From positions 248,001-312,000 of the forward strand of contig NZ_FPAU01000001.1 in assembly GCF_900116535.1 (NCBI RefSeq): a stretch of DNA of 64,000 bases. Reading direction: 5' to 3'. The notes below the pieces were generated by a model that was given only the letters and a program-made list of their open reading frames with translations, ran no database searches and had not been told where the DNA came from. The position numbers were made by a program, and so were the translations under genes. This document shows positions 16,812 to 64,000 of the stretch, in pieces; position 1 is the stretch's first letter; each line of letters opens with the position of its first letter. This DNA is from Kosakonia arachidis. GTDB lineage: Bacteria; Pseudomonadota; Gammaproteobacteria; Enterobacterales; Enterobacteriaceae.

Positions 16812-17463
16812 TTTACTGGCTGATTTAAGCCTGGCCTTTGGCGAAACCTTCCAGATGTTAAGTATCTCGACGGTGCTGGCGATTGTTGGTGGTTTACCGT
16901 TAGGCTTTTTGATTTTCGTAACCGATCGCCACCTTTTCTGGCAGAATCGCGCAGTTTATTTAATCAGCTCTGTACTGGTTAATATTATCCGTTCGGTGCC
17001 GTTTGTTATCCTGCTGGTGTTGCTGCTGCCGTTAACCCAATGGCTGCTCGGCAATACCATTGGGCCAATTGCCGCTTCTGTGCCGTTGTCCGTTGCGGCT
17101 ATCGCTTTTTATGCCCGACTGGTAGATAGCGCCCTGCGTGAAGTAGATAAAGGGATCCTCGAAGCTGCCGAGGCCTTCGGCGCCAGCCCGCTACGCATTA
17201 TTTGTACGGTGCTACTGCCGGAGGCCAGCGCCGGATTACTGCGTGGTCTGACTATCACCCTGGTGAGCCTGATTGGCTACTCGGCCATGGCGGGGATTGT
17301 CGGCGGCGGCGGTGTAGGCGATCTGGCGATTCGTTACGGCTACTATCGTTATGAAACGCAGGTAATGGTTGTCACCGTGGTGGCACTGATTGTGCTGGTG
17401 CAGGTGGTGCAGATGCTGGGCGACTGGCTGGCAAGACGTGCCGATAAGCGCGATCGCCATTGA
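16804..17463 (+). CDS. MetI-type ABC-transporter permease (SfbC-like)
   Basis: The 219-residue permease has five or six membrane segments and the EAA cytoplasmic loop (EAAEAFGASPLRIICTVLLPEA, near 118-139) that docks on the ATPase. Translation starts at a GTG (16804) that overlaps the ATPase stop by eight bases. The GTG is preceded by GGAGGTGATC, a ten-base perfect complement to the 16S rRNA 3' end, which supports efficient coupled initiation. MetI proteins are the same length. Confidence 0.88.
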   Translation: MDDLLADLSLAFGETFQMLSISTVLAIVGGLPLGFLIFVTDRHLFWQNRAVYLISSVLVNIIRSVPFVILLVLLLPLTQWLLGNTIGPIAASVPLSVAAIAFYARLVDSALREVDKGILEAAEAFGASPLRIICTVLLPEASAGLLRGLTITLVSLIGYSAMAGIVGGGGVGDLAIRYGYYRYETQVMVVTVVALIVLVQVVQMLGDWLARRADKRDRH

Positions 17464-17505
17464 TATCCTACGAGCGGGCTCATGTGGACGGCTCGCTCAC
17501 CGACA

Positions 17506-18591
17506 TTACTGCAGGTTATTTTGTGTCGCCAGCCAGGTGGTCGTTTCGTTGAAATTGCCCCGGAAGATAATATCTTTAGTGCGCTTTTCTAACTGATAGC
17601 GGTACATCGGGTCGTAATATTCTTCAAGCAGCGGCACGAGCCAGGCAAAGTGCGCACTTGTGTTACCGGTGCGCTGTTGTAGAACTAGCGCTTCCTCCTG
17701 GCGGGCGCTAAGCTGCGCAAAACGCTGTAACCCAAGACGGCGACGAATCGCAAACAGACCGTGGCGCAGATACTCGGCATAAGCCAACCAGCCTGCTTCT
17801 TCACCATCGCGCTGGATAAAGGCTTGCGACATCTGCAAAAAATAGTCGTTACGCAGGCGCTCAAGCCGTTGCTCAAACGGCTCTTCCACCACCGCCAGCG
17901 GTGATTGCGCCATTCGTTCCCGCAGTATCGCTGGTAGATGGTTCGCGCCAATGGCATGCCCCTCATCCTCCAGCAGCCAGAAGGCGGGGGACGTTTTCAG
18001 CAGTGCTGCAGCCAGTTGGTTTTCAAAACTGGCCTGCGAATGCTGCGCTTGCAGTGTGCGGCCAAACGATGAACCGCGATGGCGGGCAAGCCCTTCAAGA
18101 TCGATCCCATTTCGCCATGATGCCACCAGTAACGTTTTGCCGCTGCCGGTACAGCCGCCAATCAGCAACAGCGGGCGCTGCAAACGCTGTTGTGTCACTT
18201 CTATCGCTGTCTGGCGTAGTGCTTTGTAGCCGCCGGTGACCAGCGGATAGTCAACCCCTCGCTCGCGTAACCACTGCTGTACGATGTGTGAACGCTGGCC
18301 GCCACGCGCGCAACAGAGATAGCCGCGTGGATTTTTCGCGCAGGCCTGTAGCCATGCCTGCATTCGTTGTTCCCGTAATTCGCCCTGAACCAACTGATGG
18401 CCCAGACGCAACGCTGCCTCCGGCCCCGATTTTTTGTAGCAGGTACCGACGGCGGCACGCTCGCTGTCATTCATCAGAGGCAGGTTAATGGCGCCTGGCA
18501 GGGTACCCTGTTGAAACTCAACCGGTGCGCGGACATCAATAAGGGGAGTCGTATTACGCAGGATAGCCAGGTAATCCGTTGTGTCGTTCAT
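17506..18591 (-). CDS. mnmH: MnmH (SelU/YbbB), tRNA 2-selenouridine synthase
   Basis: MnmH converts 2-thiouridine at the tRNA wobble position to 2-selenouridine through a geranylated intermediate. The protein has 361 residues. The N-terminal rhodanese domain (to about 130) has the catalytic cysteine at Cys94 in CCARGGQR. The C-terminal P-loop domain has Walker [10 protein letters not shown]. The ATG at 18591 aligns with the E. coli start and has an AAGGA site, so the upstream frame extension to 18663 is rejected. The C-terminus keeps [14 protein letters not shown]. It converges with the ABC importer. Confidence 0.94.
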
Positions 18592-18741
18592 GTGGCGTCC
18601 TTCTGCAAAACGCGGGCGGTCATCGCCGTGTGCAGATTTTACGCCCGAAGCCACAGAGATCAATGGCGGGAACTAATTGCTTTTTGAATGTGTGTCAGGA
18701 TGCCTGCACGCTATTCCGGCACAGCGCCATATTTATCTTTT

Positions 18742-18769
18742 GTAAAACGCTGGCGATGGTCGCCAGCGT
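18742..18769 (-). terminator. Intrinsic terminator of purEK
   Basis: A perfect 10-bp stem (ACGCTGGCGA / TCGCCAGCGT, loop TGG) at 18747-18769 is followed on the minus strand by TTTTA. It lies 15 bases after the purK stop. Confidence 0.85.
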
Positions 18770-18784
18770 ACAGAAGACGGATTA

Positions 18785-19849
18785 TTACAGTTTTGACTGT
18801 GCCCAGGCGATGCCGCTGGCATATTCCGGCGGCAACAGTGGAACCAGCGCTTCCAGCGTGGCGCTCAGTCGCGCGGTATCGCTGTCGTTGAGGTTCAGGT
18901 GACCCACTTTACGTCCCGGACGCACCTCTTTGTCGTACCAGTGCAGATGCACCAGCGGCAACTTCAGCCAGTCGTAATTGAGATCGCTACCAATCAGGTT
19001 GATCATCACCGACGGGCTGTTGACCACTGGCGGCGGCAACGGTAAATCCACTACCGCGCGCAGATGCAGTTCAAACTGGCTGATTGAGGCGCCGTTTTGT
19101 GTCCAGTGGCCGCTGTTATGAACTCGCGGCGCCAGTTCGTTAATCAGCAGCCCGGACGGGGTGACAAAGCACTCCATCGCCATCACGCCGACGTAGTTCA
19201 GTTCATGCATAACCGCCGAAAGCATCTCTTCGGCTTGCTGCTGCTGTTCGGCATTGGCCTGCGGGAAAACCACGCTGGTACGCAAAATGCCGTCCTGATG
19301 CAGGTTATGCGTCAGCGGATAAAACACGGTGCTGCCATCATGGCCGCGCGCGCCAACCAGTGACACTTCACCTGAAAAGTTAATACCCTGCTCGACGATG
19401 CACTCGCCGTAGCACTCTTCCGGCAGTTGATCGATATCGGCAGCCCGCAGACGCCATTGGCCGCGACCGTCATAACCGCCAACCCGACGTTTGACGATAG
19501 CCAGCTCGCCCAGCCGCGAAAACACGCCCGGCCATTCGCTTTTCTCCGCCAGCAGTTGCCATGGCGCGGTGGCGAGCTGCAACTTGTCAAAGAGTTGTTT
19601 TTGCGTCAGACGATCCGCAATCACCGGGAATACGTCGCGGTTTACAAACGCAGGGTGACGCGCCAGTTCGCGGGTGAGCGACGTTTCCGGCCAGCGTTCA
19701 ATTTCTGCAGTGATCACGCTCTGCTGAAACGGTACCGCTTCAGGTGCAGCGTCCAGCCCGACCGGCCACACTGCAATACTCAGCGGCTCACCGGCCTGGC
19801 GCAGCATCCGGCCAAGCTGGCCGTTACCTAATACGCAAACCTGTTTCAT
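18785..19849 (-). CDS. purK: PurK, N5-carboxyaminoimidazole ribonucleotide synthetase
   Basis: PurK is the ATP-grasp enzyme that carboxylates AIR with bicarbonate to N5-CAIR in purine synthesis. It has 354 residues against 355 in E. coli. The N-terminal fold starts [17 protein letters not shown], and the ATP-grasp core includes [14 protein letters not shown] and the [13 protein letters not shown] metal and substrate segment. Its start overlaps the purE stop by four bases, so it is translated with PurE, which uses its product. Confidence 0.97.
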
Positions 19850-20355
19850 GCTGCACCCCGGGGATCGGGATTATCCAGCACTTCGTCGGTCTGGGTTTTG
19901 CGCCACTGCACCAGACGCTGATGCAACGCAGCATCATGCTGGGCGAGAATTTGCGCGGCCAGCAGCGCTGCGTTTGCTGCACCAGCTTTGCCGATCGCCA
20001 GCGTTCCAACAGGAATGCCGCGCGGCATCTGGACGATAGAGTAGAGGCTATCGACGCCGCTCAGGGCTGCACTTTGTACTGGTACACCCAGCACCGGCAC
20101 CAGCGTTTTGGCCGCAATCATCCCAGGCAAATGCGCTGCGCCGCCAGCACCGGCGATGATCACCTGAAAACCGTTCTGCTCTGCGCTTTCGGCGAAGCTA
20201 AACAGTTTATCCGGAGTGCGGTGTGCGGAGACGATTTCAACATGGTGCGGGACGTTCAGGGTATCCAGGATTTCTGCGGCGAACTGCATGGTTGCCCAGT
20301 CGCTTTTCGATCCCATAACAATGGCGATGCGCGCCGGTTGGTTGCTTGAAGACAT
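19846..20355 (-). CDS. purE: PurE, N5-CAIR mutase
   Basis: PurE moves the carboxylate of N5-CAIR to carbon to give CAIR. The chosen start at 20355 gives 169 residues, exactly as in E. coli. [17 protein letters not shown] with the catalytic His, and the [12 protein letters not shown] loop are intact. An in-frame TTG three codons earlier sits too close to the GGAG site, so ATG 20355 is preferred. It is first gene of purEK, with a PurR box upstream. Confidence 0.97.
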
Positions 20356-20427
20356 GCGTCTCAAAACTCCTGTGGGTGTACTTCAGACGACAAAAGAGGG
20401 CAAAGAGAATAGCACGTAAAAGAATGA

Positions 20428-20443
20428 AGGAAAACGGTTGCGT
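20428..20443 (-). promoter_or_regulatory. PurR operator for purEK
   Basis: The 16-base site AGGAAAACGGTTGCGT matches the PurR palindrome ACGAAAACGTTTGCGT at 14 of 16 positions. It lies about 73 bases before the purE start and overlaps the likely -35 of a minus-strand promoter with an extended -10 TGCTATTCT. In E. coli PurR represses purEK from the same place. Confidence 0.8.
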
Positions 20444-20484
20444 GGCGATGTTTTGCGCGTTTGTCGCGATGCTGGCGTTGCTAA

Positions 20485-21207
20485 TCAGAAGGGAAAAAAG
20501 AGCAGTTCAACACCGGTTTCGCTGACGCGCACCATTGAACCTTCGCTGTGCCAGGCACCGAGAACGGCGCGGTAAGCCGGAGCGTTATTGGTCGTCAATT
20601 CATGCACTGCCGGGCGGTGGGTATGGCCGTGGATCAGCCACTGAACGCGATGCATTTCCATCACGTCGATGACGGCTTGTGGGTTCACGTCCATGATCTC
20701 AAGTGATTTACTGCTGTTAGCGGCTTTACTTCCGGCGCGCATTTTCGCAGCGACACGGCGGCGGATAAACAGCGGCAGAGCGAGAAACAGGGTTTGTATC
20801 CACGGCGTGTGGACTTTTTTGCGAAACGCCTGGTAACCGGCATCGTCGGTACACAGTGTATCGCCGTGCATGATCAGTACTTTGCGGCCATACAGATCGA
20901 GTACTTGCGCTTCCGGCAGCAGTTGCATGCCGCTTTGGCGGGCAAAGCGTTTACCGAGCAGAAAATCACGGTTGCCGTGAATGAAGTAGCACGGTACACC
21001 GCTTTCAACCAGCGATTTGATGGCGCTGGCGATTTGCTGGTGCAACGGGTTGGGATCGTCATCGCCGATCCAGGCTTCAAACAGATCGCCGAGAATATAG
21101 AGCGCGTCCGCCTGGCGAGCCTCACCGGCTAAAAAACGCAGAAAACCGGCGGTGATCGCCGGTTCTTCTGTTTGCAGGTGCAAATCTGCAATAAAGAGTG
21201 TCGCCAC
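20485..21207 (-). CDS. lpxH: LpxH, UDP-2,3-diacylglucosamine diphosphatase
   Basis: LpxH cleaves UDP-2,3-diacylglucosamine to lipid X in lipid A synthesis at the inner-membrane face. It has 240 residues as in E. coli. The calcineurin-like metal ligands are visible: [25 protein letters not shown] and HGHTHRP. Translation starts at GTG (21207), two bases after the ppiB stop. The short gap implies cotranscription with ppiB. Confidence 0.97.
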
Positions 21208-49199: not shown

Positions 49200-49880
49200 A
49201 TGAAAATACTGATCGTTGAAGATGAAATCAAAACAGGTGAGTATCTCAGCAAGGGGCTTACCGAGGCCGGGTTCGTGGTTGATCACGCCGATAATGGTCT
49301 GACCGGATATCATCTCGCCATGACGGCAGAATATGATTTGCTGATTCTGGATATCATGCTCCCGGATGTGAATGGCTGGGATATTATACGTATGCTTCGT
49401 ACTGCGGGTAAGGGGATGCCGGTGTTATTACTGTCTGCCCTGGGAACTATCGAGCATCGAGTCAAGGGGCTTGAGCTTGGTGCAGATGATTATCTGGTTA
49501 AACCCTTTGCATTCGCCGAACTTCTGGCTCGTGTCAGAACCCTCCTGCGTCGTGGCAATACAGTGATATCTGAAAGCCAGTTTAAGGTTGCCGATCTGAC
49601 GCTTGATCTTGTATCGAGAAAGGTTAACAGGGCCGGAAACCGTATTCTGTTGACCAGTAAAGAGTTCAGTTTGCTGGAATTTTTTATTCGCCATCAGGGA
49701 GAAGTGTTGCCCCGCTCTCTGATAGCATCTCAGGTCTGGGACATGAATTTTGATAGCGACACTAACGCGATTGACGTCGCGGTAAAGCGGCTTCGGGCTA
49801 AAATAGACAATGATTATGAACCGAAACTGATCCAGACGGTCCGCGGTGTGGGTTACATGCTGGAGATTCCGGATGCCTAA
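49200..49880 (+). CDS. silR: SilR, silver-responsive response regulator
   Basis: SilR is an OmpR-type regulator of 226 residues with the receiver aspartate near 51 ([14 protein letters not shown]) and a winged-helix domain ([27 protein letters not shown]). It activates silCFBA and silE when phosphorylated by SilS. Its stop overlaps the silS start by eight bases. Confidence 0.94.
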
Positions 49881-51348
49881 CCAGCTCACCAGACGTCCGT
49901 TCTCCCTTGCGCTGAGGCTTACATTCTTTATCAGCCTGTCCACAATAATGGCTTTTATCGCGTTTACCTGGTTTATGCTGCATTCCGTTGAAAATCATTT
50001 TGCCGAGCAGGATGTCAGCGATCTGCAACAAATTAGCACCACGATGCAGCGTTTATTGCAATCTCCGGCAGATCCCGATGAGAAAAAAATAAGTAAAATC
50101 AAGGAATCGATAGCCAGTTACCGCAACGTTGCCGTTCTGCTTCTTGATGCCCAGGGAGAGGTATTGTTCAGTTCGGCACAAGGGGCAGCATTACACCCGG
50201 CCGTGAATACGGCAGACTTTCGCGAGCACAGCCGCGCGCGCGATGTTTTTCTCTGGACTGTGGCGGCTCCTGCCCGGGCGATGCTCTCCTCCCATGATAT
50301 GAAAATGGAAACGTACAGGATAATTGCCTCATCAGGGGTAACGGCATTTCAAGGGAAAAACCAGAACTACGTCATGCTAATCGGGCTCTCCATTAATTTT
50401 CATCTTCACTATCTTGATGCGCTGAAAAAGAACTTGGTTGCAATTGCCACTGTCATCAGCCTGCTCATTATTCTTATTATTCGGATTGCCGTTCGTCAGG
50501 GGCATCTCCCCCTGCGCAACGTCAGCAATGCCATTAAAAATATCACCTCAGAGAATCTTGATGCCAGGCTTGAACCGTCACGCGTTCCCATTGAGCTGGA
50601 ACAGCTGGTCATCTCTTTCAATCATATGATTGAAAAAATTGAGGATGTATTTACCCGCCAGGCCAATTTCTCTGCAGATATCGCGCACGAAATCAGAACC
50701 CCGATCACTAATCTGGTGACGCAAACTGAAATTGCGCTGAGTCAGGACCGGACACAGAAGGAGCTCGAGGATGTTCTGTACTCCAGCCTTGAAGAGTACA
50801 ACCGGATGACAAAGATGGTCAGCGATATGCTTTTCCTTGCACAGGCTGACAATAATCAGTTGATCTCTGATCGGGTAATGTTTGATTTGAGTACAGAGGT
50901 TATTAAAGTCTTTGATTTCTTCGAAGCCTGGGCGGAAGAACGCAACATCATATTGAAGTTCAACGGTATACCCTGCCTGATCGAAGGGGATCCACAGATG
51001 TTCAGAAGAGCAATCAATAACCTGTTATCTAATGCATTACGCTATACACCGGAAGGACAAACGGTGACCGTTTCGATGAGAGAACAGGAAAACTATTTTG
51101 ATCTCATAGTCGAAAATCCGGGAAAACCGATCCCTGAAGAACATTTGCCAAGACTGTTTGACCGCTTTTATCGGGTGGATCCCTCCAGGCAAAGAAAAGG
51201 AGAGGGCAGTGGTATAGGCCTTGCTATTGTGAAATCAATCGTGGCCGCACATCATGGAAAAGTCCATGTAGAATCCGATGCTCATTCGACACGTTTCATA
51301 TTATCAGTACCAAGACAGGATATTGTAAATAAAGCAAGTCAGCACTGA
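49873..51348 (+). CDS. silS: SilS, silver-sensing histidine kinase
   Basis: SilS has two membrane segments (about 18-40 and 190-212) around a periplasmic sensor, then HAMP, HisKA (phospho-His in [16 protein letters not shown]) and HATPase. The ATG at 49873 gives 491 residues with a GGAGA site. The catalytic half is very conserved, but the sensor domain has fewer His and Met residues than I remember for plasmid SilS and CusS, so its metal sensitivity may differ. Confidence 0.92.
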
Positions 51349-51362
51349 TTTCCAGCAATAAA

Positions 51363-51418
51363 AATGACAAACATGTCATTAGGTTGTCACGCGGTAAACA
51401 GAGACCATCCGATATAAT
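51363..51418 (+). promoter_or_regulatory. silE promoter with SilR box
   Basis: AATGACAA-AC-ATGTCATT (51363-51380) matches the SilR/CusR box with one arm mismatch. A perfect TATAAT (51413-51418) lies 32 bases further, with no good -35, as expected for an activator-dependent promoter. It leaves a leader of about 175 bases before silE. Confidence 0.75.
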
Positions 51419-51600
51419 TCATACAACTTATCAGCAAGGCTGCATTACTTCATCAATACAGGTCATTAACAGTGCTCTATGAGATGAATATACAGTCTGT
51501 CGTCCGGAAAAATAAGGTCTGGGCAGTATCATTAGAGTTTGAAAGTGAAAGCCTTGAACACAATTACCGGGCATTATTAATTCAGTAATGGAGAGTTATC

Positions 51601-52032
51601 ATGAAAAATATCGTATTAGTATCTGTTTTAGGTCTTGGCGTAATTTCAACGGCGTGGGCCACTGACACCGTTAATATTCATGAGAGTGTCAATAATGCGC
51701 AGGCTCCGGCTCACCAGATGCAGTCGGCTTCGGTTCCTTCCGCGATCCAGGGCTCAACGCCACAGATAGACGGTATGAATCCGCATGAACAGGCCATTAT
51801 TGCTCATGAGACCATGAATAATGGCTCGGCTGATACACACCAGAAAATGATGGAAAATCACCAGAAGATGATGGGAGTTCACTCCATTAACGTTACCCGC
51901 CCGTCAGTCCCTTTCTCTGCTATGGATGAACATGAAAGGGCTGCTGTTGCCCATGAAACCATGAATAACGGTCAGTCCGGAGCGCATCAGGCTATGGCCG
52001 AGGCTCACCGTCGTATGATCAAAGCCAGCTGA
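51601..52032 (+). CDS. silE: SilE, periplasmic silver-binding protein
   Basis: SilE soaks up Ag(I) in the periplasm. It has 143 residues with a signal peptide ending AWA. The mature protein is disordered and full of His and Met pairs (HQKMMENHQKMMG, MNPHEQAIIAHETMNNG, and again MDEHERAAVAHETMNNG), the HxxM and MxxH units that bind silver. A strong terminator follows. The protein is intact, so silver buffering should be preserved even though silP is missing. Confidence 0.93.
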   Translation: MKNIVLVSVLGLGVISTAWATDTVNIHESVNNAQAPAHQMQSASVPSAIQGSTPQIDGMNPHEQAIIAHETMNNGSADTHQKMMENHQKMMGVHSINVTRPSVPFSAMDEHERAAVAHETMNNGQSGAHQAMAEAHRRMIKAS

Positions 52033-52106
52033 ATTCAACTGTAATGTGCATGTTGTTACCCTTTCCTTGATAGATGTTTCCTTGATCGAATATGTGGCTA
52101 TATTTT

Positions 52107-52127
52107 GCCCCCGCCTGGGGGCTTTTT
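52107..52127 (+). terminator. Intrinsic terminator of silE
   Basis: GCCCCC-GCCT-GGGGGC followed by TTTTT, 75 bases after the silE stop. Confidence 0.9.
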
Positions 52128-52178
52128 ATCTCTCTCAGCTACAATTACCGGGTACGCAACTAACAAAGGATTTATTTT

Positions 52179-52529
52179 ATGAAAATCAAAAACTCTCTTT
52201 TCGTTATATTAATACTATCCCTGCCAGCGCTATCCGCCGAACACTCAGGGATGAAAATGGATGATATGACATCATCGGCATCGTCTCAGGAATATATGGC
52301 TGGCATGACAGATATGCATGAAAAAATGATGGCTGCTGTTAAAGAACCAGATCCTGATAAGGCGTTTGCTAAAGGTATGATTGCGCATCATGAAGGTGCG
52401 ATAAAAATGGCAGAAACCGAGCTTAAATATGGAAAAGACCCCGAAATGAGAAAACTTGCGCAGAACATCATAAAAGCGCAGAAAGGCGAAATCGACCAGA
52501 TGAATAAATGGGTCGATAATCATAAATAA
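52179..52529 (+). CDS. DUF305-family periplasmic protein, probable metal-stress role
   Basis: The 116-residue product has a signal peptide ending LSA (about 20 residues) and a DUF305 four-helix fold with the family motif MIAHHEGAIKMAE. The mature N-terminus is Met/His-rich (EHSGMKMDDM), and so is the first helix. DUF305 proteins such as cyanobacterial CopM bind copper or silver in the periplasm. An AAAGGA site precedes the ATG. It lies just after the silE terminator and looks like an accessory of the sil cluster. Confidence 0.82.
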   Translation: MKIKNSLFVILILSLPALSAEHSGMKMDDMTSSASSQEYMAGMTDMHEKMMAAVKEPDPDKAFAKGMIAHHEGAIKMAETELKYGKDPEMRKLAQNIIKAQKGEIDQMNKWVDNHK

Positions 52530-57322: not shown

Positions 57323-58462
57323 TCAGGACGTGCTTTTACCCGGCAGGCCACGCACCCGGATGGGCTCTTCGACGGCGTTCGCGGCAAGCAACCGCTGAAG
57401 GGCGGAGATCGCGGTATCGGTCAGTTCATGTCCCTTGGTCAGCACCATTAATCCATTTGTGGTGCGAATATCTTCATCGACGACCCAACCCGGCATCAAT
57501 TCACGGATACGTGCGGAGCGAACCCCCTCCACATTCGAGCGAAAATCTGACAGCGCTTTGATGAGATATTCAGGCAACGCCGGACGTGCCGCACGCAGGA
57601 TGTCCCACGGGCGCTCCAGGCTCCAGCCTCGCGCGGCGTGCCGTTCCAGCTCCAGTGCAGCGCGCAGTAGCTGAGCGCCGCGTACCACTTCTAACGGCGC
57701 GTCAGCAGGCGCCTCTTTTGCCTGGTGACGAATGATCGCCGCAACCAGTTCAAGACGCGGGATTTGCGCCACCAGTCGGCCAGCAACCTCCGGATGTTCA
57801 TGCAGCAGTTTTTCCTCCGCCGCCGTCAATTTACGCTGCGCGGCATCAGCCTGAACGATGTCAGCAGGAATGCCAACACAGCCGATCTGACTCAATGACG
57901 CGGCGAGGGTGTAGAGCCACTCATCGTGCCATCCCAGTTTCGGCAATGCGTGGCGAACGCAGGACTGCGCGAAAGCCGCTCGCTGAAAAGCCCAGGGGGC
58001 GACCATTGCCAGTATTTCTGTGAGCGTTTTTACCGAAGCCGAAAGGGTGGTCGCCAGCAGCTCTTTTTCTGCGCAAACGAGCCGGTACTGACGAACCGCG
58101 TCATTCAACGTCGATATTAGATCTTCTTTTGGGCATGGTTTACAGAGATAGCGGAAAATAGCGCCTTTATTGATTGCTGCGATCGAGGACTCCACATCGG
58201 CCTGTCCGGTAAGCAGGATCCGCACGCTGTCTGGCGAAGCTTCCCGTGCTCTGGATAAAAAAGTCGCGCCATCCATTCCCGGCATGCGCATGTCGGAGAG
58301 GATCACTGCAAAAGGTTCTCCGCTGCGAATCGCATCCAGACCGGCATCACCGCTGGGTGCTGTCACCACATCAAATACTTCAAACAGATTTCGCGCGATG
58401 GCCGCGAGCACATTGGGTTCATCGTCGACACATAACACGCGAGGTAAGGAAGTTTCAGTCAT
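57323..58462 (-). CDS. Response regulator with degenerate HD-GYP domain
   Basis: The 379-residue protein has an intact receiver: Asp13/Asp14, phospho-Asp57 (VILSDMRMPGMDG), Thr85 and Lys108. A linker leads to an HD-GYP-like domain (about 145-310) whose catalytic signature is lost. LLHDIGKIGIPD reads SLSQIGCVGIPAD, so His-Asp became Ser191-Gln192, and the HHExxDGxGYP region reads RHQAKEAPADAPL with no GYP. It should not cleave c-di-GMP; it may bind it or another phosphodiesterase. The ATG at 58462 has AGGAGA and overlaps the upstream gene by eight bases. It is the last gene of the array. Confidence 0.85.
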   Translation of the reverse strand: MTETSLPRVLCVDDEPNVLAAIARNLFEVFDVVTAPSGDAGLDAIRSGEPFAVILSDMRMPGMDGATFLSRAREASPDSVRILLTGQADVESSIAAINKGAIFRYLCKPCPKEDLISTLNDAVRQYRLVCAEKELLATTLSASVKTLTEILAMVAPWAFQRAAFAQSCVRHALPKLGWHDEWLYTLAASLSQIGCVGIPADIVQADAAQRKLTAAEEKLLHEHPEVAGRLVAQIPRLELVAAIIRHQAKEAPADAPLEVVRGAQLLRAALELERHAARGWSLERPWDILRAARPALPEYLIKALSDFRSNVEGVRSARIRELMPGWVVDEDIRTTNGLMVLTKGHELTDTAISALQRLLAANAVEEPIRVRGLPGKSTS

Positions 58463-59531
58463 TGAGCATCTCCTGCCATGCAGGCAGTTGGTCCAGCATG
58501 CCGGTTTGTTCGAGATAACGTTTATCGGGAACGCCATGATTGGCAAGGGTGACCGCAACATGTACGACACCGAGCATGCCAAAGGTTTTTTCCGCGGAGC
58601 GTGAAGGTTGTTCATGGCCTGCGACGGCTTCAACGATGTCCATCGGCAACCCCCACAGCGCCAGTAAATAGGCGCTGATGGCGGCGCGCAGTGGGATATC
58701 ATCCTGCTCGATCGTCGCTTCGTCACACGTCGTTCTTAATTCAGGAATGAGCAGCGCAATATTGGCCAGCAGTGCCGCAGTGGCTTCCCGTTCCCGGCGC
58801 CTGGAGATACGCGCCGCAAGCGTTGAGGCGCGAAGGGCGGTCTGCTGTAGCTTATCCACATAGGGATCGGTACTGGCATCGGCATAAACCTGGGACGCCA
58901 GTACCAGTAGTTTCACTTGTTCCTGCCCCAAATGAATGATTGCATTAGCAATGTCATGAATAGGTTCTCCCCGGTTGAACCAGTCGGAATTCGCCAGTTG
59001 CATAATCCGGGCACTCAGTGCCGGGTCGCTCGCCAGCAGCCCGGCAATCTCCAGGGGATTCGCCCCAGAGTTGGCAAGAAGGCGGTTAATTTCCGCAAAT
59101 ACTTTCGGGGCGGGAGGAAGTTGGTTAATTTTCCCGACCAGTGTGACGACGACAGGGTCTTTGAAAAGCCTCCGCAGCGCCAGCGCGTTTGCCACCATCT
59201 CCAGTAATTGCGTACTGTCGCAGGGTTTGGAGACGAACCGGTGCGCAACGCCCAGCATACGAACCGTAGCCTCGGGTTCGGAGTAACCGGACAAAATGAT
59301 CCGAATCGTTCCGGGCCAGCGGTTACGAACCTGCGCCAGGAACTCCGCGCCATCCATCAGCGGCATGCGCATATCTGACACTACAACGTCGGCCGGGGTG
59401 TCTTCCAGCAGGCTCAGAGCTTCGTGACCGCTGGTCGCGAAGCGGCATTCCCACCCGCTATCCTGCATCATTAGGGCGCGTTCAATCCCCGAGAGGATGC
59501 GTGCTTCGTCATCGACGAATATCGCCTGCAT
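58455..59531 (-). CDS. Response regulator with HDOD output domain
   Basis: The 358-residue product has a complete receiver (Asp7/Asp8, phospho-Asp53 in VVVSDMRMP, Ser81, Lys102) and then an HDOD domain (about 128-300: INQLPPAPKVFAEINRLLANSGANPLEIAGLLASDPALSARIMQLAN). HDOD domains are non-catalytic relatives of HD phosphohydrolases used in signalling protein contacts. A strong AGGAGG site precedes the ATG. It lies two bases after the kinase stop and overlaps the next regulator, so the three are one translational unit. Confidence 0.88.
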   Translation of the reverse strand: MQAIFVDDEARILSGIERALMMQDSGWECRFATSGHEALSLLEDTPADVVVSDMRMPLMDGAEFLAQVRNRWPGTIRIILSGYSEPEATVRMLGVAHRFVSKPCDSTQLLEMVANALALRRLFKDPVVVTLVGKINQLPPAPKVFAEINRLLANSGANPLEIAGLLASDPALSARIMQLANSDWFNRGEPIHDIANAIIHLGQEQVKLLVLASQVYADASTDPYVDKLQQTALRASTLAARISRRREREATAALLANIALLIPELRTTCDEATIEQDDIPLRAAISAYLLALWGLPMDIVEAVAGHEQPSRSAEKTFGMLGVVHVAVTLANHGVPDKRYLEQTGMLDQLPAWQEMLND

Positions 59532-59533
59532 AC

Positions 59534-60631
59534 CTACGCCTCCTGTTGAACGTGGAGGGGGAACCTCATGATGAACGTTGCACCCGAACCGGGTTTCGAC
59601 TCGCAGCGAATCTGTCCACCATGCTTGTCCACGACGGTCGAGTAGGCAATTGCCAGCCCCTGGCCGGTGCCTTTACCCACCGCTTTGGTAGTGAAGAAGG
59701 GATCGAAAATACGATCGCGAACCGCCTCAGGGATGCCAGTACCATCGTCGACGACGCGGATCTCCATCATATCGCCGACCTGCTCCGCAGAGACGAGGAT
59801 GTGCCCTTTTTCCAGCCCGCGGGCCTGAAGGCTGTCAGCAATAGCGTGTGCCGCATTGACGATCAGGTTAAGCATCGCCTGGCCAACCATATCGCGCAGA
59901 CAGGGTAGAAGCGGCAAATCATTGGCGAAACGGGTTTCCAGTTCTGCCACGTATTTCCATTCGTTGCGGGCGACGGTCACGGTGGTATTGATGATGTCGC
60001 GTATATCCACATACTCCTTTTTATTTTGCGAGGGATGGGAGAATTCTTTCATGGCGGCGACAATCCGGGAGATATGTCCAAGCCCGTCGAGTGATTCATC
60101 TAAAGACTGGGGGATCTGACGGCGCAGAAACTCAATTTTGCTGCTCTTGAGCAGGGTATCGAATGCAGCAAGTGTTGGCTCATCGGCCATTTTTTCCCGC
60201 ATCACGGCGGCCATAGCGATCGCCGCATCGAGCAGGCTGAGCAGCGAACGGTTGGCCGTCTTCACGAACCCGACATTGTCAGAAACATACTGCGTGGGCG
60301 TATTAATTTCATGGGCGATCCCGGCGGCAAGCTGGCCGATAGACTCCAGCTTTTGCGCCTGAAGAAGCTGTGCCTGCGTGAGACGCAGCTCAGCAAGCGC
60401 CTTTTCTAACTCATGGCGCTCGTTTTCCAGTTCTATGGTTTTACGGGCGACTACTTTCTCCAGACCCACATTCTGCTCAAGAATAGCGAACGGGGTCATG
60501 TGGCTGTGTCGGCTCTCTTGCGCGATGCGTCGCTTTAACACCTCGATGGTTTTATCCCGCGCGACAAGTTTGCGCTGATAATCGGTAAGGGAGAGTGTTG
60601 CAACTGTTGCTTCAGATGACGGAGACATCAT
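59534..60631 (-). CDS. Soluble histidine kinase
   Basis: The 365-residue kinase has no membrane segment. A coiled coil (about 55-98) leads to HisKA with His107 in [16 protein letters not shown], an inserted helical part, and HATPase with [15 protein letters not shown] (250-264), DDGTGIP (295-301) and [10 protein letters not shown] (319-328). It has no sensor domain of its own, so input probably comes from the FIST protein encoded just upstream, with which it shares an ATGA overlap. A double ATG occurs at the start; the second (60628) is better spaced from AGGAGG. Confidence 0.88.
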
Positions 60632-61743
60632 TTACCTCCTATTGCCACGCCCGTGAATGTCTGGTTGACGTGCAGCCCGTTGTACTGCTCGCCGTAGGTT
60701 GAGAAACCCACGATTCGGTTTTGCACCATAAAATTGCCGATCTGCTGGTCAAGTTCCTCCTGCTCAAACTGCAAACGCCGCAGGATACAATCACAGCCAA
60801 TAATCACAGCCGGCTCCGGTATGGTTTCATGAACTTTTGCCAGCGCCTGGTTAAAGGTTTCGAGCGGATCTTCCGCAATGCCAATCGAGACAATTAACCC
60901 TTCCTCAATCGCGCAGTAGCAGGTCAGCGAGAGATCGTCGTTCAATTTCTGTATCGAGCGAACATAAGGTTCGTCGCCCAAAGAAAGCACCAGCGGATTG
61001 CGGGAAAAAACGGTTGGCGTTAATTCTGCCACAGTGATGCCCAGCGATTCGGCATACACTTGCCCGGCAGGTTCGCCGTTGATTTCCCGGATCAGCCGTT
61101 TTTCGGGATCGGCCTCGGTAATGATTAATTCCACTTCGCCGGGTTCGAAGTGCTGAACTTTAAAAATCTCCACCGGCGAGGAGGTTTCTATGACCGCGAA
61201 CACCGCCGCATCGGAAAGAAACTCACCTTCACCATTATAGACGTAGCTCTTTTCGAATCGCAGATCGTCACCCGCAGAACCGCCGATCACAGGAATGTTT
61301 CCCGTCTGCTGATAGAGGTTAGCGATAAGCCGTTCCTCCGCCATCGACAAGCCATCAATCAGTAACAAACCAAATCGTTGCAAATTAGGACTAGCCGCGC
61401 TGCCGCGACGGATCTCCTCGGCAATTTCTGCAATGGTTGCGGAGTAATCGGTCAGGGGGTGAATCACAAAAGAGCGGGTGCGAAAATTGGCACTCAGACC
61501 AAGCCCTAACAGCCCGGAGTGCTGAAAGCCATGGGTGCCGATCTGCCCGGATGAGGTACATCCAATACAGGGGCAGCGAAATGTTTTTTGCATCTCGCGG
61601 CCCAGAATATTCAGGTCATAGTCTGGGGAACAGAAGAAAAGGATCGTTTCTGGCTCAGCGGGAAGCATCTGCCTGGCAAATTCAGCAACCGCCAGCACGG
61701 GGTCAGTCAATTCACTACTTGCATATCGGATCTGGAAATTCAT
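60628..61743 (-). CDS. FIST-domain sensor protein (NosP-like)
   Basis: The protein has 371 residues with FIST_N (about 25-215) followed by FIST_C, and no membrane segment or signal peptide. FIST proteins include the NosP family, haem proteins that sense nitric oxide and control a partner histidine kinase, often encoded next door. Sequence features include CPCIGCTSSGQIG with several cysteines, GLSMAEERLIANLYQQTGNIPVIGGSAGDDLRF and the C-terminal QNRIVGFSTYGEQYNGLHVNQTFTGVAI. The ATG at 61743 has GGGGGA before it. Its stop overlaps the kinase start. Whether it binds haem cannot be read from sequence. Confidence 0.85.
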   Translation of the reverse strand: MNFQIRYASSELTDPVLAVAEFARQMLPAEPETILFFCSPDYDLNILGREMQKTFRCPCIGCTSSGQIGTHGFQHSGLLGLGLSANFRTRSFVIHPLTDYSATIAEIAEEIRRGSAASPNLQRFGLLLIDGLSMAEERLIANLYQQTGNIPVIGGSAGDDLRFEKSYVYNGEGEFLSDAAVFAVIETSSPVEIFKVQHFEPGEVELIITEADPEKRLIREINGEPAGQVYAESLGITVAELTPTVFSRNPLVLSLGDEPYVRSIQKLNDDLSLTCYCAIEEGLIVSIGIAEDPLETFNQALAKVHETIPEPAVIIGCDCILRRLQFEQEELDQQIGNFMVQNRIVGFSTYGEQYNGLHVNQTFTGVAIGGK

Positions 61744-61812
61744 GTTGTTCCCCCAAGCTAAAGCGTCAGACAGGCTAGCGGCGTCATACAATCAACGCCG
61801 CAGCACGTCAGG

Positions 61813-63477
61813 TTAAAATGATTGCCAGTTTTCGTTGGCCGTCGCGTTACGGGTTACTTTGCGCGAAGGAGGATTTGCCTTCGTGGCGGTTTTGGCTGCC
61901 TGTCCTGGACGGCCGGTCACGGGGTTATCTCCTAAATCAAAGAGCGCAATGGCGTCGTTTAATCGCCCGGCTTCTTCTTCAAGTGCGATGGCATTTGCTT
62001 TGGCCTCCTGAACCAGCGCTGCGTTCTGCTGCGTCGCACGATCCATTTCTGTCATCGCCTGGCCAATCTGATCGATGCCCTTGCTCTGCTCGTCGGAAGC
62101 AATGGTGATTTCACCCATCAATGCATTGACCTGACCCACGGTATTGATAATTGTCGACATTGCCTCGCCGGCCTCTTGTACCTGCTCTGCGCCCGTTTGC
62201 ACTCTGTTAACGGATTCACTAATCAGCGCTTCGATCTCTTTAGCCGCCTGGGCGCTACGCTGTGCAAGTAAGCGTACTTCGCTGGCAACGACGGCAAAGC
62301 CTCGTCCCTGTTCACCCGCGCGTGCCGCTTCCACTGCCGCATTTAGCGCCAGCAGGTTGGTCTGAAAAGAGATGCTGTTTATTACGCTGGTGATATCTGC
62401 AATTTTCTGCGAGCTTTCCGAAATACCGTGCATCGTGGCGACAACCGTTGACGTAATATCACCGCCTTGTTTCGCCACTTGCCGGGCGTTTCCGGCAAGT
62501 TTTTGTGCTTCGCGTACGTTTTGCGCGTTGTTTCTGACAGTCGATGTCAACTCTTCCATACTGGCTGCAGTTTGCTGAAGTGCCGCGGCCTGTTGATCGG
62601 TACGACCAGAAAGCTCTTCGTTCCCTGAGCGGATTTGGTTGGTGCTGGTAAAGATGGTGGTTGAGCTACCCTGAATCGCCTGCACCGTTCTATAAAGATT
62701 TTCCTGCATCCCCTGAATAAAAGGGATCAAACGACCGGCGCAGTTACGCCCAAACTCTTCAAGCCTGGTGTGAAGCTTACCGCTGGCAATGGTTTCAAGG
62801 TGCCGCGCAATGGTATCAAGTGGTTTAACCAGATAATTGACCAGATAACGATCGGTTAAGAACAGTGTCACAATGCCGGCGATTAACGCGCTGATCAGTA
62901 CTAGTTCGTTAAAATTCACTTTCGCTGTGGTCTGGTTTAAAAAGTCATCATTTTGAATCGCTTGGGTATATTTTTCGGCGGTCACGCCAAATTGCACACT
63001 CAGCGGCGGATAGGTTTTGCGAAACAGTTCGCGGAACTGATCGGCCTGCTTATCCTGTGCGGCTTTATACATAGGAATAATGCCGTTGTTCAGCAGTTTT
63101 TCCCAGTCCTGAGTCATGCTCTGAACAACCTCATCGCTGACGCCAGGATGGCTGCTCTGGCGGAACTTCGCCAGCATATCCTGGCTGATCTCCAGTGCTT
63201 TGCCTGCGGAAATCAACGTCTTATCTGCATTGGCATCATCACCGGTCAGGCGATAATCCATGGCGCGCAGCATGCGTGTCATAGTACGGAAATATTGGTC
63301 GTTGCCTTTAACCAAATAAGAGTATGCGTTTTTTTGCGTGGCGTTCTGCGTTAATAAATTTTCGATATTGGCGAAGTTAAATAATGTCATCGCCGTGGCG
63401 ATGCCCCAGATGCAACTGAACAGCACCAGGATGAGTAAAACCATTTTTCTGATTGTTATATCACGAAGTATTTTCAT
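61813..63477 (-). CDS. Methyl-accepting chemotaxis protein (Tar/Tsr-like)
   Basis: The 554-residue receptor has membrane segments at about 12-32 and 190-212 around a four-helix-bundle periplasmic sensor, then HAMP, methylation helices and the conserved tip (VINSISFQTNLLALNAAVEAARAGEQGRGFAVVASEVRLLAQRSA). It ends NWQSF, a variant of the NWETF pentapeptide that tethers CheR and CheB, so it can be methylated efficiently. The ATG at 63477 has AGGGA and starts the first membrane helix; the frame upstream is rejected. It lies 69 bases before the FIST gene on the same strand. Confidence 0.92.
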   Translation of the reverse strand: MKILRDITIRKMVLLILVLFSCIWGIATAMTLFNFANIENLLTQNATQKNAYSYLVKGNDQYFRTMTRMLRAMDYRLTGDDANADKTLISAGKALEISQDMLAKFRQSSHPGVSDEVVQSMTQDWEKLLNNGIIPMYKAAQDKQADQFRELFRKTYPPLSVQFGVTAEKYTQAIQNDDFLNQTTAKVNFNELVLISALIAGIVTLFLTDRYLVNYLVKPLDTIARHLETIASGKLHTRLEEFGRNCAGRLIPFIQGMQENLYRTVQAIQGSSTTIFTSTNQIRSGNEELSGRTDQQAAALQQTAASMEELTSTVRNNAQNVREAQKLAGNARQVAKQGGDITSTVVATMHGISESSQKIADITSVINSISFQTNLLALNAAVEAARAGEQGRGFAVVASEVRLLAQRSAQAAKEIEALISESVNRVQTGAEQVQEAGEAMSTIINTVGQVNALMGEITIASDEQSKGIDQIGQAMTEMDRATQQNAALVQEAKANAIALEEEAGRLNDAIALFDLGDNPVTGRPGQAAKTATKANPPSRKVTRNATANENWQSF

Positions 63478-63576
63478 CGTATTTTCCCTACTGCGTATTG
63501 GGTAAGCTTTTCTGCACCACTGTGGTATGCTGCAAGAAAAAGAGTTCACGTCTCAAACTGCAATTATTGTTGGTTG

Positions 63577-64000
63577 TTATAGGGCCGCATCACACCTCGC
63601 TTCGATATTACATTCAATAATGTGCAGGTTATCCTTGACAGCCTCTAATGAGACTGGGCGACCTATGTAATATCCTTGTGCAATGTCACATTTGTATTTT
63701 ATTAATTGCTGCAATTGCTCGTGTGTTTCAACGCCTTCAGCGGTTACCTCAAGGTTGTAATCTTTGCCGAGCCCAATGATCTTTTCCACAATACTCTTTG
63801 CCGATTGTGAATCGTTCATCGCGAAGATAAATGACTTGTCAATTTTAATGCCATGAAAAGGAAAGCTGTGCAGGTAATAAAGCGATGCATAGCCAGTACC
63901 GAAATCATCAATCAGCAGCCGGATACCTAAGGTTTTTAATTCCTGCATTATGGCCTTGGCGTTTTCGGGGCTACATAATGTCACATTTTCAGTAACTTCA
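63577..64000 (-). CDS. EAL-domain protein, C-terminal part (cut by window edge)
   Basis: The frame is open to the end of the window, so the 5' part is missing. What is visible is the second half of an EAL domain: EVTEN, LLIDDFGTGYASL, HGIKIDKSFI, VTAEGVETHEQLQQL and QGYYIGRP. The acidic and Lys residues for c-di-GMP hydrolysis in this half are present, so the enzyme is probably an active phosphodiesterase. It lies 99 bases upstream of the chemoreceptor on the same strand. N-terminal sensor or GGDEF domains cannot be judged. Confidence 0.9.
   Translation of the reverse strand, partial: EVTENVTLCSPENAKAIMQELKTLGIRLLIDDFGTGYASLYYLHSFPFHGIKIDKSFIFAMNDSQSAKSIVEKIIGLGKDYNLEVTAEGVETHEQLQQLIKYKCDIAQGYYIGRPVSLEAVKDNLHIIECNIEARCDAAL

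Follow-up and report, generated by a model that had tools for sequence, protein, structure and literature searches.

What do the six genes at the right-hand end of this 64,000-nucleotide stretch of the 5.1 Mb Kosakonia arachidis genome (the window) amount to? They encode, in order, a GGDEF-EAL protein, a chemoreceptor, a NosP-like FIST sensor, a histidine kinase and two response regulators. A sequence-only reading had taken them for one module coupling nitric oxide (NO), haem or another ligand to both chemotaxis and biofilm choice. We conclude that the last four genes are a real, tight and conserved core. In our reading, to which we give a probability of roughly 0.6, this core is a self-contained NosP-kinase signalling operon with two non-enzymatic outputs. 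It would derive from an older triad of kinase and regulator genes and, in one branch of Kosakonia, would be read through from the genes upstream.

The six genes are read from the minus strand, in a run that starts past the right edge of the window and stops at position 57323. The core begins with the sensor (60628..61743, 371 amino acids, FIST and FIST_C domains), whose open reading frame (ORF) is open from 61791. It is followed by a soluble kinase (59534..60631, 365 amino acids, H-box HEINT) in which HATPase_c (1.1e-22) is the sole Pfam domain. Next come a REC-HDOD response regulator (58455..59531, 358 amino acids; REC 4e-20, HDOD 1e-24) and a response regulator with REC and degenerate HD-GYP domains (57323..58462, 379 amino acids; REC 1.6e-17, HD_5 7.4e-16). 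The ORF of the latter in the window (57323-58726) is too long and 58462 is its likely start. With start codons backed by homologues, nosP and the kinase gene overlap by 4 bp, the kinase and HDOD genes are 2 bp apart, and the HDOD and HD-GYP genes overlap by 8 bp. The gene order, domains and close packing first described from the sequence are borne out.

The core is conserved as a unit. A FIST query matched 43 of 392 genomes of the family. These matches comprise 16 full-length proteins (69-100% identity), one broken copy (G028) and 26 proteins at 24-33% identity. Nearly all of the last lie in open frames of 518-792 amino acids, like a fusion of FIST to a methyl-accepting chemotaxis protein (MCP) in the window genome. 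Each of the 16 full-length NosP genes has kinase and HDOD genes next to it. Hence, the association is no chance grouping. The HD-GYP gene comes next wherever a longer stretch was viewed, in 15 of 15 such loci: that of the window genome and all but one of the other 15. A single scan of species genomes, confined to close relatives, named 21 loci. Sixteen have all four genes, two are at a contig edge (L015, L020) and in L024 all four are present as broken fragments; the other two, from Bacteriovoracaceae, have FIST and a weak kinase match only. The core also occurs in Dickeya, Serratia, Phytobacter, Mangrovibacter, Shewanella fodinae, Azoarcus indigens and a Xanthomonas. Its neighbours outside Kosakonia include genes for cyclic di-GMP (c-di-GMP) turnover: GGDEF before and EAL after the core in Azoarcus (L021), and a divergent EAL gene in Mangrovibacter.

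The origin of the core was approached through its HDOD protein, the best relatives of which, among 369 genomes of the class, led to 14 loci. Six (L198, L199, L202, L203, L204, L209) hold a kinase, an HDOD and a dead HD-GYP gene. Of the remaining eight, two have kinase and HDOD (L205, L210), five have neither partner, and L208 has just a 139-amino-acid kinase-like ORF on the opposite strand. No FIST gene was found in any of the 14. A triad of adjacent kinase, REC-HDOD and REC-HD-GYP genes, the last with SQ for HD, is shared by the window, the Azoarcus locus and six loci lacking FIST. Judged by eye, four of the six triad kinases, and the kinases of both kinase-HDOD pairs, have N-terminal REC, PAS, GAF or MHYT-like regions. 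The window kinase matched seven kinases from the HDOD loci at 131-297 bits and two from Bacteriovoracaceae at 52-55 bits. Kinases near other FIST genes in a class sample (20 loci, taken from 59 further genomes with a match; 19 showed a recognisable FIST gene) reached at most 40 bits.

In a 37-row kinase tree the 20 core kinases clustered together (95/99), nested within the triad kinases, and seven of eight FIST-adjacent kinases fell past a 100/99 branch. These eight come from 15 scored class loci, six of which lacked a match to our kinase model; in L100 the match lay away from its FIST gene. Loci with two kinases (L087, L096, L094) contributed a single one each, and L199 is in neither tree, its kinase being truncated where a contig stops. 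A 30-row tree (13 of 20 core, six of seven triad and three of eight FIST-adjacent kinases) again placed the core in one group (100/99) nested among triad kinases. A search of the 369 class genomes gave 31 H-NOX matches, spread over 25 genomes, and in six of 20 fetched H-NOX loci the adjoining kinase scored at least 195 on the kinase model. This model was built from the 29 kinases that matched that of the window at E 1e-20; as most of them are core and triad kinases, its scores favour these. In the 30-row tree the H-NOX-neighbour kinases were separated from core and triad (100/99), yet fell on their side of the tree and away from the three FIST-adjacent kinases. On the simplest reading of these sequences, a kinase/HDOD/dead-HD-GYP triad already existed when NosP joined it, a single time, and the resulting set of four genes later had a patchy spread. 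Passages from three papers that cover HDOD, HD-GYP, histidine kinase and operon do not describe the triad. Two other origins were considered and set aside. For a plasmid source, plasmid kinase matches were just 33-41% identical (14 records) and the best listed plasmid NosP matches 37-44%. For E. coli, a megablast search, which needs ~85% identity, returned no match.

Neither regulator looks like an enzyme. Judging by its residues, the HD-GYP domain is dead, as had been proposed. The catalytic HD position reads SQ in nine of 10 aligned regulators and SH in one (L022); among the eight core or triad rows SQ is invariant. The window protein also lacks the GYP motif. Its HDOD partner is without an HD pair, which some triad relatives retain. 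Both RECs keep the phosphoacceptor-type segment SDMRMP. In a c-di-GMP survey of Dickeya zeae, passages report that loss of the single REC HD-GYP/HDOD protein (W909_14520), which may or may not belong to this core, increased swarming.

The chemoreceptor and GGDEF-EAL genes have a different history. The receptor (61813..63477, 554 amino acids) has a TarH ligand domain and an MCP signalling domain according to Pfam, and ends in NWQSF, which resembles the CheR-binding pentapeptide. The neighbouring gene (63577..64000) runs beyond the window edge, with its remainder in adjoining DNA (L003 8577-11183). Taken from the window alone it had been called a partial EAL phosphodiesterase. The EAL domain is there, but this is no simple phosphodiesterase because the full 868-residue product is CHASE4-(PAS)-GGDEF-EAL, the PAS being weak and below its cut-off. 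Its sequence contains GGDEF, RATD five residues before GGDEF, EAL, DDFGTG and TAEGVE. By general motif rules this set reads as an intact GGDEF-EAL protein. The two genes are 99 bp apart, and the receptor is separated from nosP by 69 bp. PMC13277305 describes CHASE4 domains of Pseudomonas aeruginosa that bind haem or probably copper.

Fifteen genomes of the genus split 5/6/4. Core, receptor and GGDEF-EAL genes are contiguous in five (G000, G072, G761, G765, G766), with ~90% DNA identity over 10.6 kb. Six (G762, G763, G764, G767, G334, G193) have the core at 78-79% identity and a receptor ortholog (69-73%) at a separate locus; in four of these, all draft assemblies, the two are on different contigs. 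The last four (G268, G760, G390, G768) have neither the core nor a close receptor ortholog. Beside the separate receptor ortholog, LysR/SDR genes are found in all six genomes and an H-NS-like gene, by an overlap rule, in five. The same genes sit past GGDEF-EAL in the window genome; the stretches fetched from the other branch genomes had no match to the LysR/SDR part. In G762 the receptor and GGDEF-EAL (56%) genes are adjacent with no NosP gene beside them. Hence, core and receptor appear to be separate units joined in one branch.

This bears on the proposal of one true module, in which receptor, GGDEF-EAL protein and NosP circuit co-evolved so that a single signal governs both chemotaxis and biofilm. 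The contiguity and high identity in five of the 15 genus genomes, the lack of any terminator- or promoter-like site found on the minus strand in either gap, and purifying selection on all six genes (mean dN/dS 0.08-0.22; 10 pairs from five branch rows) all speak for it. The six genomes with core and receptor apart, and the receptor pair without NosP in G762, speak against it. Moreover, no same-orientation receptor was seen next to the core in other genera, within the ~5 kb around core loci viewed. With 39 MCP domains in the window genome, an MCP somewhere nearby is also not rare. We consider the single module distinctly unlikely. The claim of co-occurrence in other genomes therefore survives for the four-gene core; for the receptor/EAL part it fails outside one Kosakonia branch.

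Other MCP genes were noted near related loci. In three Kosakonia-type loci (L007, L008, L012; ~17440-20990) two opposite-strand MCP genes occur, the nearer ~3 kb downstream of the NosP core; they match window MCPs at only 38-47%. Elsewhere in the window genome (G000:C6:1023232-1031128) a second protein, also an 868-residue frame, is 37% identical to the N-terminal half of the GGDEF-EAL protein and lies 2-6 kb from two MCP domains. Such a neighbourhood may occur twice in this genome.

Could the joined genes be expressed together? We looked for expression signals upstream of nosP. A promoter-like element (TTGNTA-like, 17-bp spacing, TANNCT) is found within 200 bp of nosP in 16 of 27 non-branch rows, which include near-duplicates of the same species, and in none of five branch rows. 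Shuffled upstream DNA contained it in 44 of 16,000 cases. Since these very rows were the source from which the pattern was derived by eye, the counts describe and do not test. In the branch, the 69-bp gap (61744..61812) holds a GC stem-loop without a T run in all five rows (z -1.9 to -3.4; three rows folded). Our scan listed no sigma-70-like or terminator-like site on the minus strand in the 69-bp or 99-bp gaps. Because the usual promoter-like element is missing and no intrinsic-terminator-like site precedes nosP, the core in the branch is probably read through from the receptor and GGDEF-EAL genes, and co-transcription of all six genes there is plausible. Searching the window for the exact consensus of a flagellar sigma-28 promoter gave no site ahead of either the receptor gene or nosP. 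A looser scan (at least 12 of 16 matches, best six per stretch) gave several matches per 14-21 kb, which we took as noise; in four relatives, 13- and 14-match sites lie ~0.9-1.3 kb upstream of the receptor.

Alternatively, the adjacency could be a neutral insertion without co-expression, the core being driven by an undetected promoter in the 3' end of the receptor gene. Unrelated neighbours do flank the core in different genera, and the stem-loop could uncouple the transcripts. We find this doubtful, since no sigma-70-like site was found in the gap, the upstream element is lost and the arrangement is kept in five of five branch genomes.

The core resembles several described circuits. The sequence-only reading had likened it to NosP/kinase pairs and the Shewanella Hno network, and this comparison is supported. 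Passages of PMC12570481 describe NosR-NosP-NosK of Burkholderia pseudomallei and B. thailandensis. There, too, NosP, a sensorless kinase and a regulator with a degenerate HD-GYP domain (NosR, with HG-GTP) are encoded together, and NO strengthens or relieves inhibition of the kinase by NosP, depending on species. That system has one regulator, compared with two in Kosakonia, and HDOD is absent from the text of PMC12570481. In Shewanella oneidensis, according to sections of PMC6335343 and PMC8846402, a separate NO sensor likewise feeds branched kinase outputs: HnoK passes signal to HnoB, HnoC and the degenerate HD-GYP protein HnoD, which acts on HnoB by contact. The sensor there is H-NOX, the kinase acts through an EAL enzyme and a transcription factor besides HnoD, and those sections do not mention an HDOD regulator. 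In the window the kinase and degenerate HD-GYP genes lie close together, and the one product may feed the other; no HNOB domain was found in the window genome. Although some H-NOX-adjacent kinases belong to the same broad group, core kinases side with triad kinases; S. oneidensis itself is not in the trees. NosP of Legionella also controls a kinase feeding a c-di-GMP regulator (NosP-NahK-NarR; passages of PMC8846402), but the output is a single GGDEF-EAL regulator. FIST-adjacent kinases of eight other class genomes mostly (seven of eight) fall past a supported branch; Legionella is not in that tree. Finally, Xanthomonas GsmR, a regulator of flagellar genes, has the same REC-HDOD architecture and no phosphodiesterase activity, and the passages of PMC4114195 and PMC9040570 state no link to NosP or a kinase. 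The earlier view that no described enteric system with this gene set is known finds support: a whole-word literature search, with most subscription papers outside its scope, found no paper sharing NosP and HDOD, or NosP and Kosakonia.

These comparisons suggest how the operon might work. The NosP-like protein, probably haem-bound, would report NO or haem state, bind the sensorless kinase and set its autophosphorylation. The kinase would then hand phosphate to both regulators. The REC-HDOD protein likely tunes expression of motility or chemotaxis genes, as GsmR does; the REC-dead-HD-GYP protein likely binds and tunes real c-di-GMP enzymes, as HnoD does with HnoB. NosP would have been added to the older triad, whose kinases mostly have sensors of their own. 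In the one Kosakonia branch the operon lacks the usual promoter-like element and lies 69 bp behind the receptor and the CHASE4-GGDEF-EAL gene, which looks intact. Our verdict is that the four-gene circuit is a variant of NosP/H-NOX multi-regulator signalling and that the six-gene set is a branch-specific joining, plausibly co-expressed.

The name NosP is suggested by one FIST plus FIST_C protein being encoded next to a sensorless kinase. The closest named NosP relatives are those of Kosakonia oryziphila (95%) and K. sacchari (93%), in line with the genus. Azospirillum plasmid proteins annotated as NosP are 39-42% identical. His198 is present in 21 of 21 aligned proteins and in three of three NosPs above the NCBIfam cut-off, and is at most suggestive of haem or NO binding.

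Several observations weigh against our reading. The sensor scores 388.6 bits on the NosP model NF041558, below the cut-off of 450. In a broader FIST alignment His198 is found in just 13 of 23 rows, the window protein among them, and the near-invariant residues are Asp130, Arg262, Arg322, Glu352 and Asn360. This set would fit a small-molecule pocket equally well as haem. The HD-GYP regulator likewise falls below the cut-off of the NosR model NF053512 (202.5 bits against 400). NosR was rejected as its name on this score, which is typical of many other response regulators of the class (~160-230 bits); the cut-off is passed in 34 of 369 class genomes, not including that of the window. Of the FIST-less triad kinases, that of L203 (349 amino acids) has no obvious sensor and that of L199 is incomplete at a contig end. 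Bootstrap support for the 37-row tree had not settled and both trees carried long-branch warnings. The core is damaged in places: L024 has pieces of all four genes, G028 broken FIST, kinase and HDOD genes, and G167 a kinase in two frames. The by-eye derivation of the promoter-like pattern is a further point, as is its absence from 11 of 27 non-branch rows.

A specific alternative is that the FIST protein senses a small molecule, such as an amino or organic acid, rather than NO or haem, with the same action on the kinase. We think this fairly unlikely. Although below cut-off, the score spans the whole NosP model (residues 24-385 of the ORF cover all 368 positions), and His198 is common to NosPs over the cut-off but replaced by Asn in the FIST-MCP fusion of the same genome. 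That fusion (FIST, FIST_C, MCPsignal; contig C11, L004:6324-8294) is a direct FIST-to-chemotaxis link apart from the window operon. A predicted model of the FIST protein has a fold like human FBXO22, with weaker likeness to chorismatase and cyclic amide hydrolases. Its conserved Arg/Glu/Asp residues are a candidate small-molecule site.

A bolder extension of the NosP-kinase reading, against which we would bet somewhat, is that the kinase/HDOD/dead-HD-GYP set is a plug-in cassette. It would take interchangeable sensors (fused PAS, GAF, MHYT or REC; separate NosP) and, without enzymatic output of its own, hold or release resident c-di-GMP enzymes and motility regulators. Capture by a chemoreceptor transcript in the Kosakonia branch would co-express haem/NO sensing, chemotaxis and c-di-GMP turnover. 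The core brings NosP-type signalling into Enterobacteriaceae and adds an HDOD branch, which the literature searched does not link to NosP. One kinase group with fused sensors, NosP or, more distantly, H-NOX is a natural sensor-swap series for asking how sensors address a kinase. As both outputs seem non-catalytic, signalling by dead HD-family domains can be tested directly, and the genus split supplies related species with and without receptor linkage.

Three further features were noted. Two NosR-model regulators lie within 1.2 kb of H-NOX genes: L245 (G393:C6; 467.6 bits, above cut-off), in the order H-NOX, kinase, HD-GYP regulator with intact HD, NtrC-like regulator, and L255 (G530:C40; 325.3, below). 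Beyond the GGDEF-EAL gene are a weak FlhC match (L003:13003-13545; E 0.0014, below cut-off) and an H-NS-like protein (L003:13804-14208). Elsewhere in the window, 49846-52529 encodes a membrane sensor kinase, then small Met/His-rich secreted proteins, and looks like a copper/silver response cluster.

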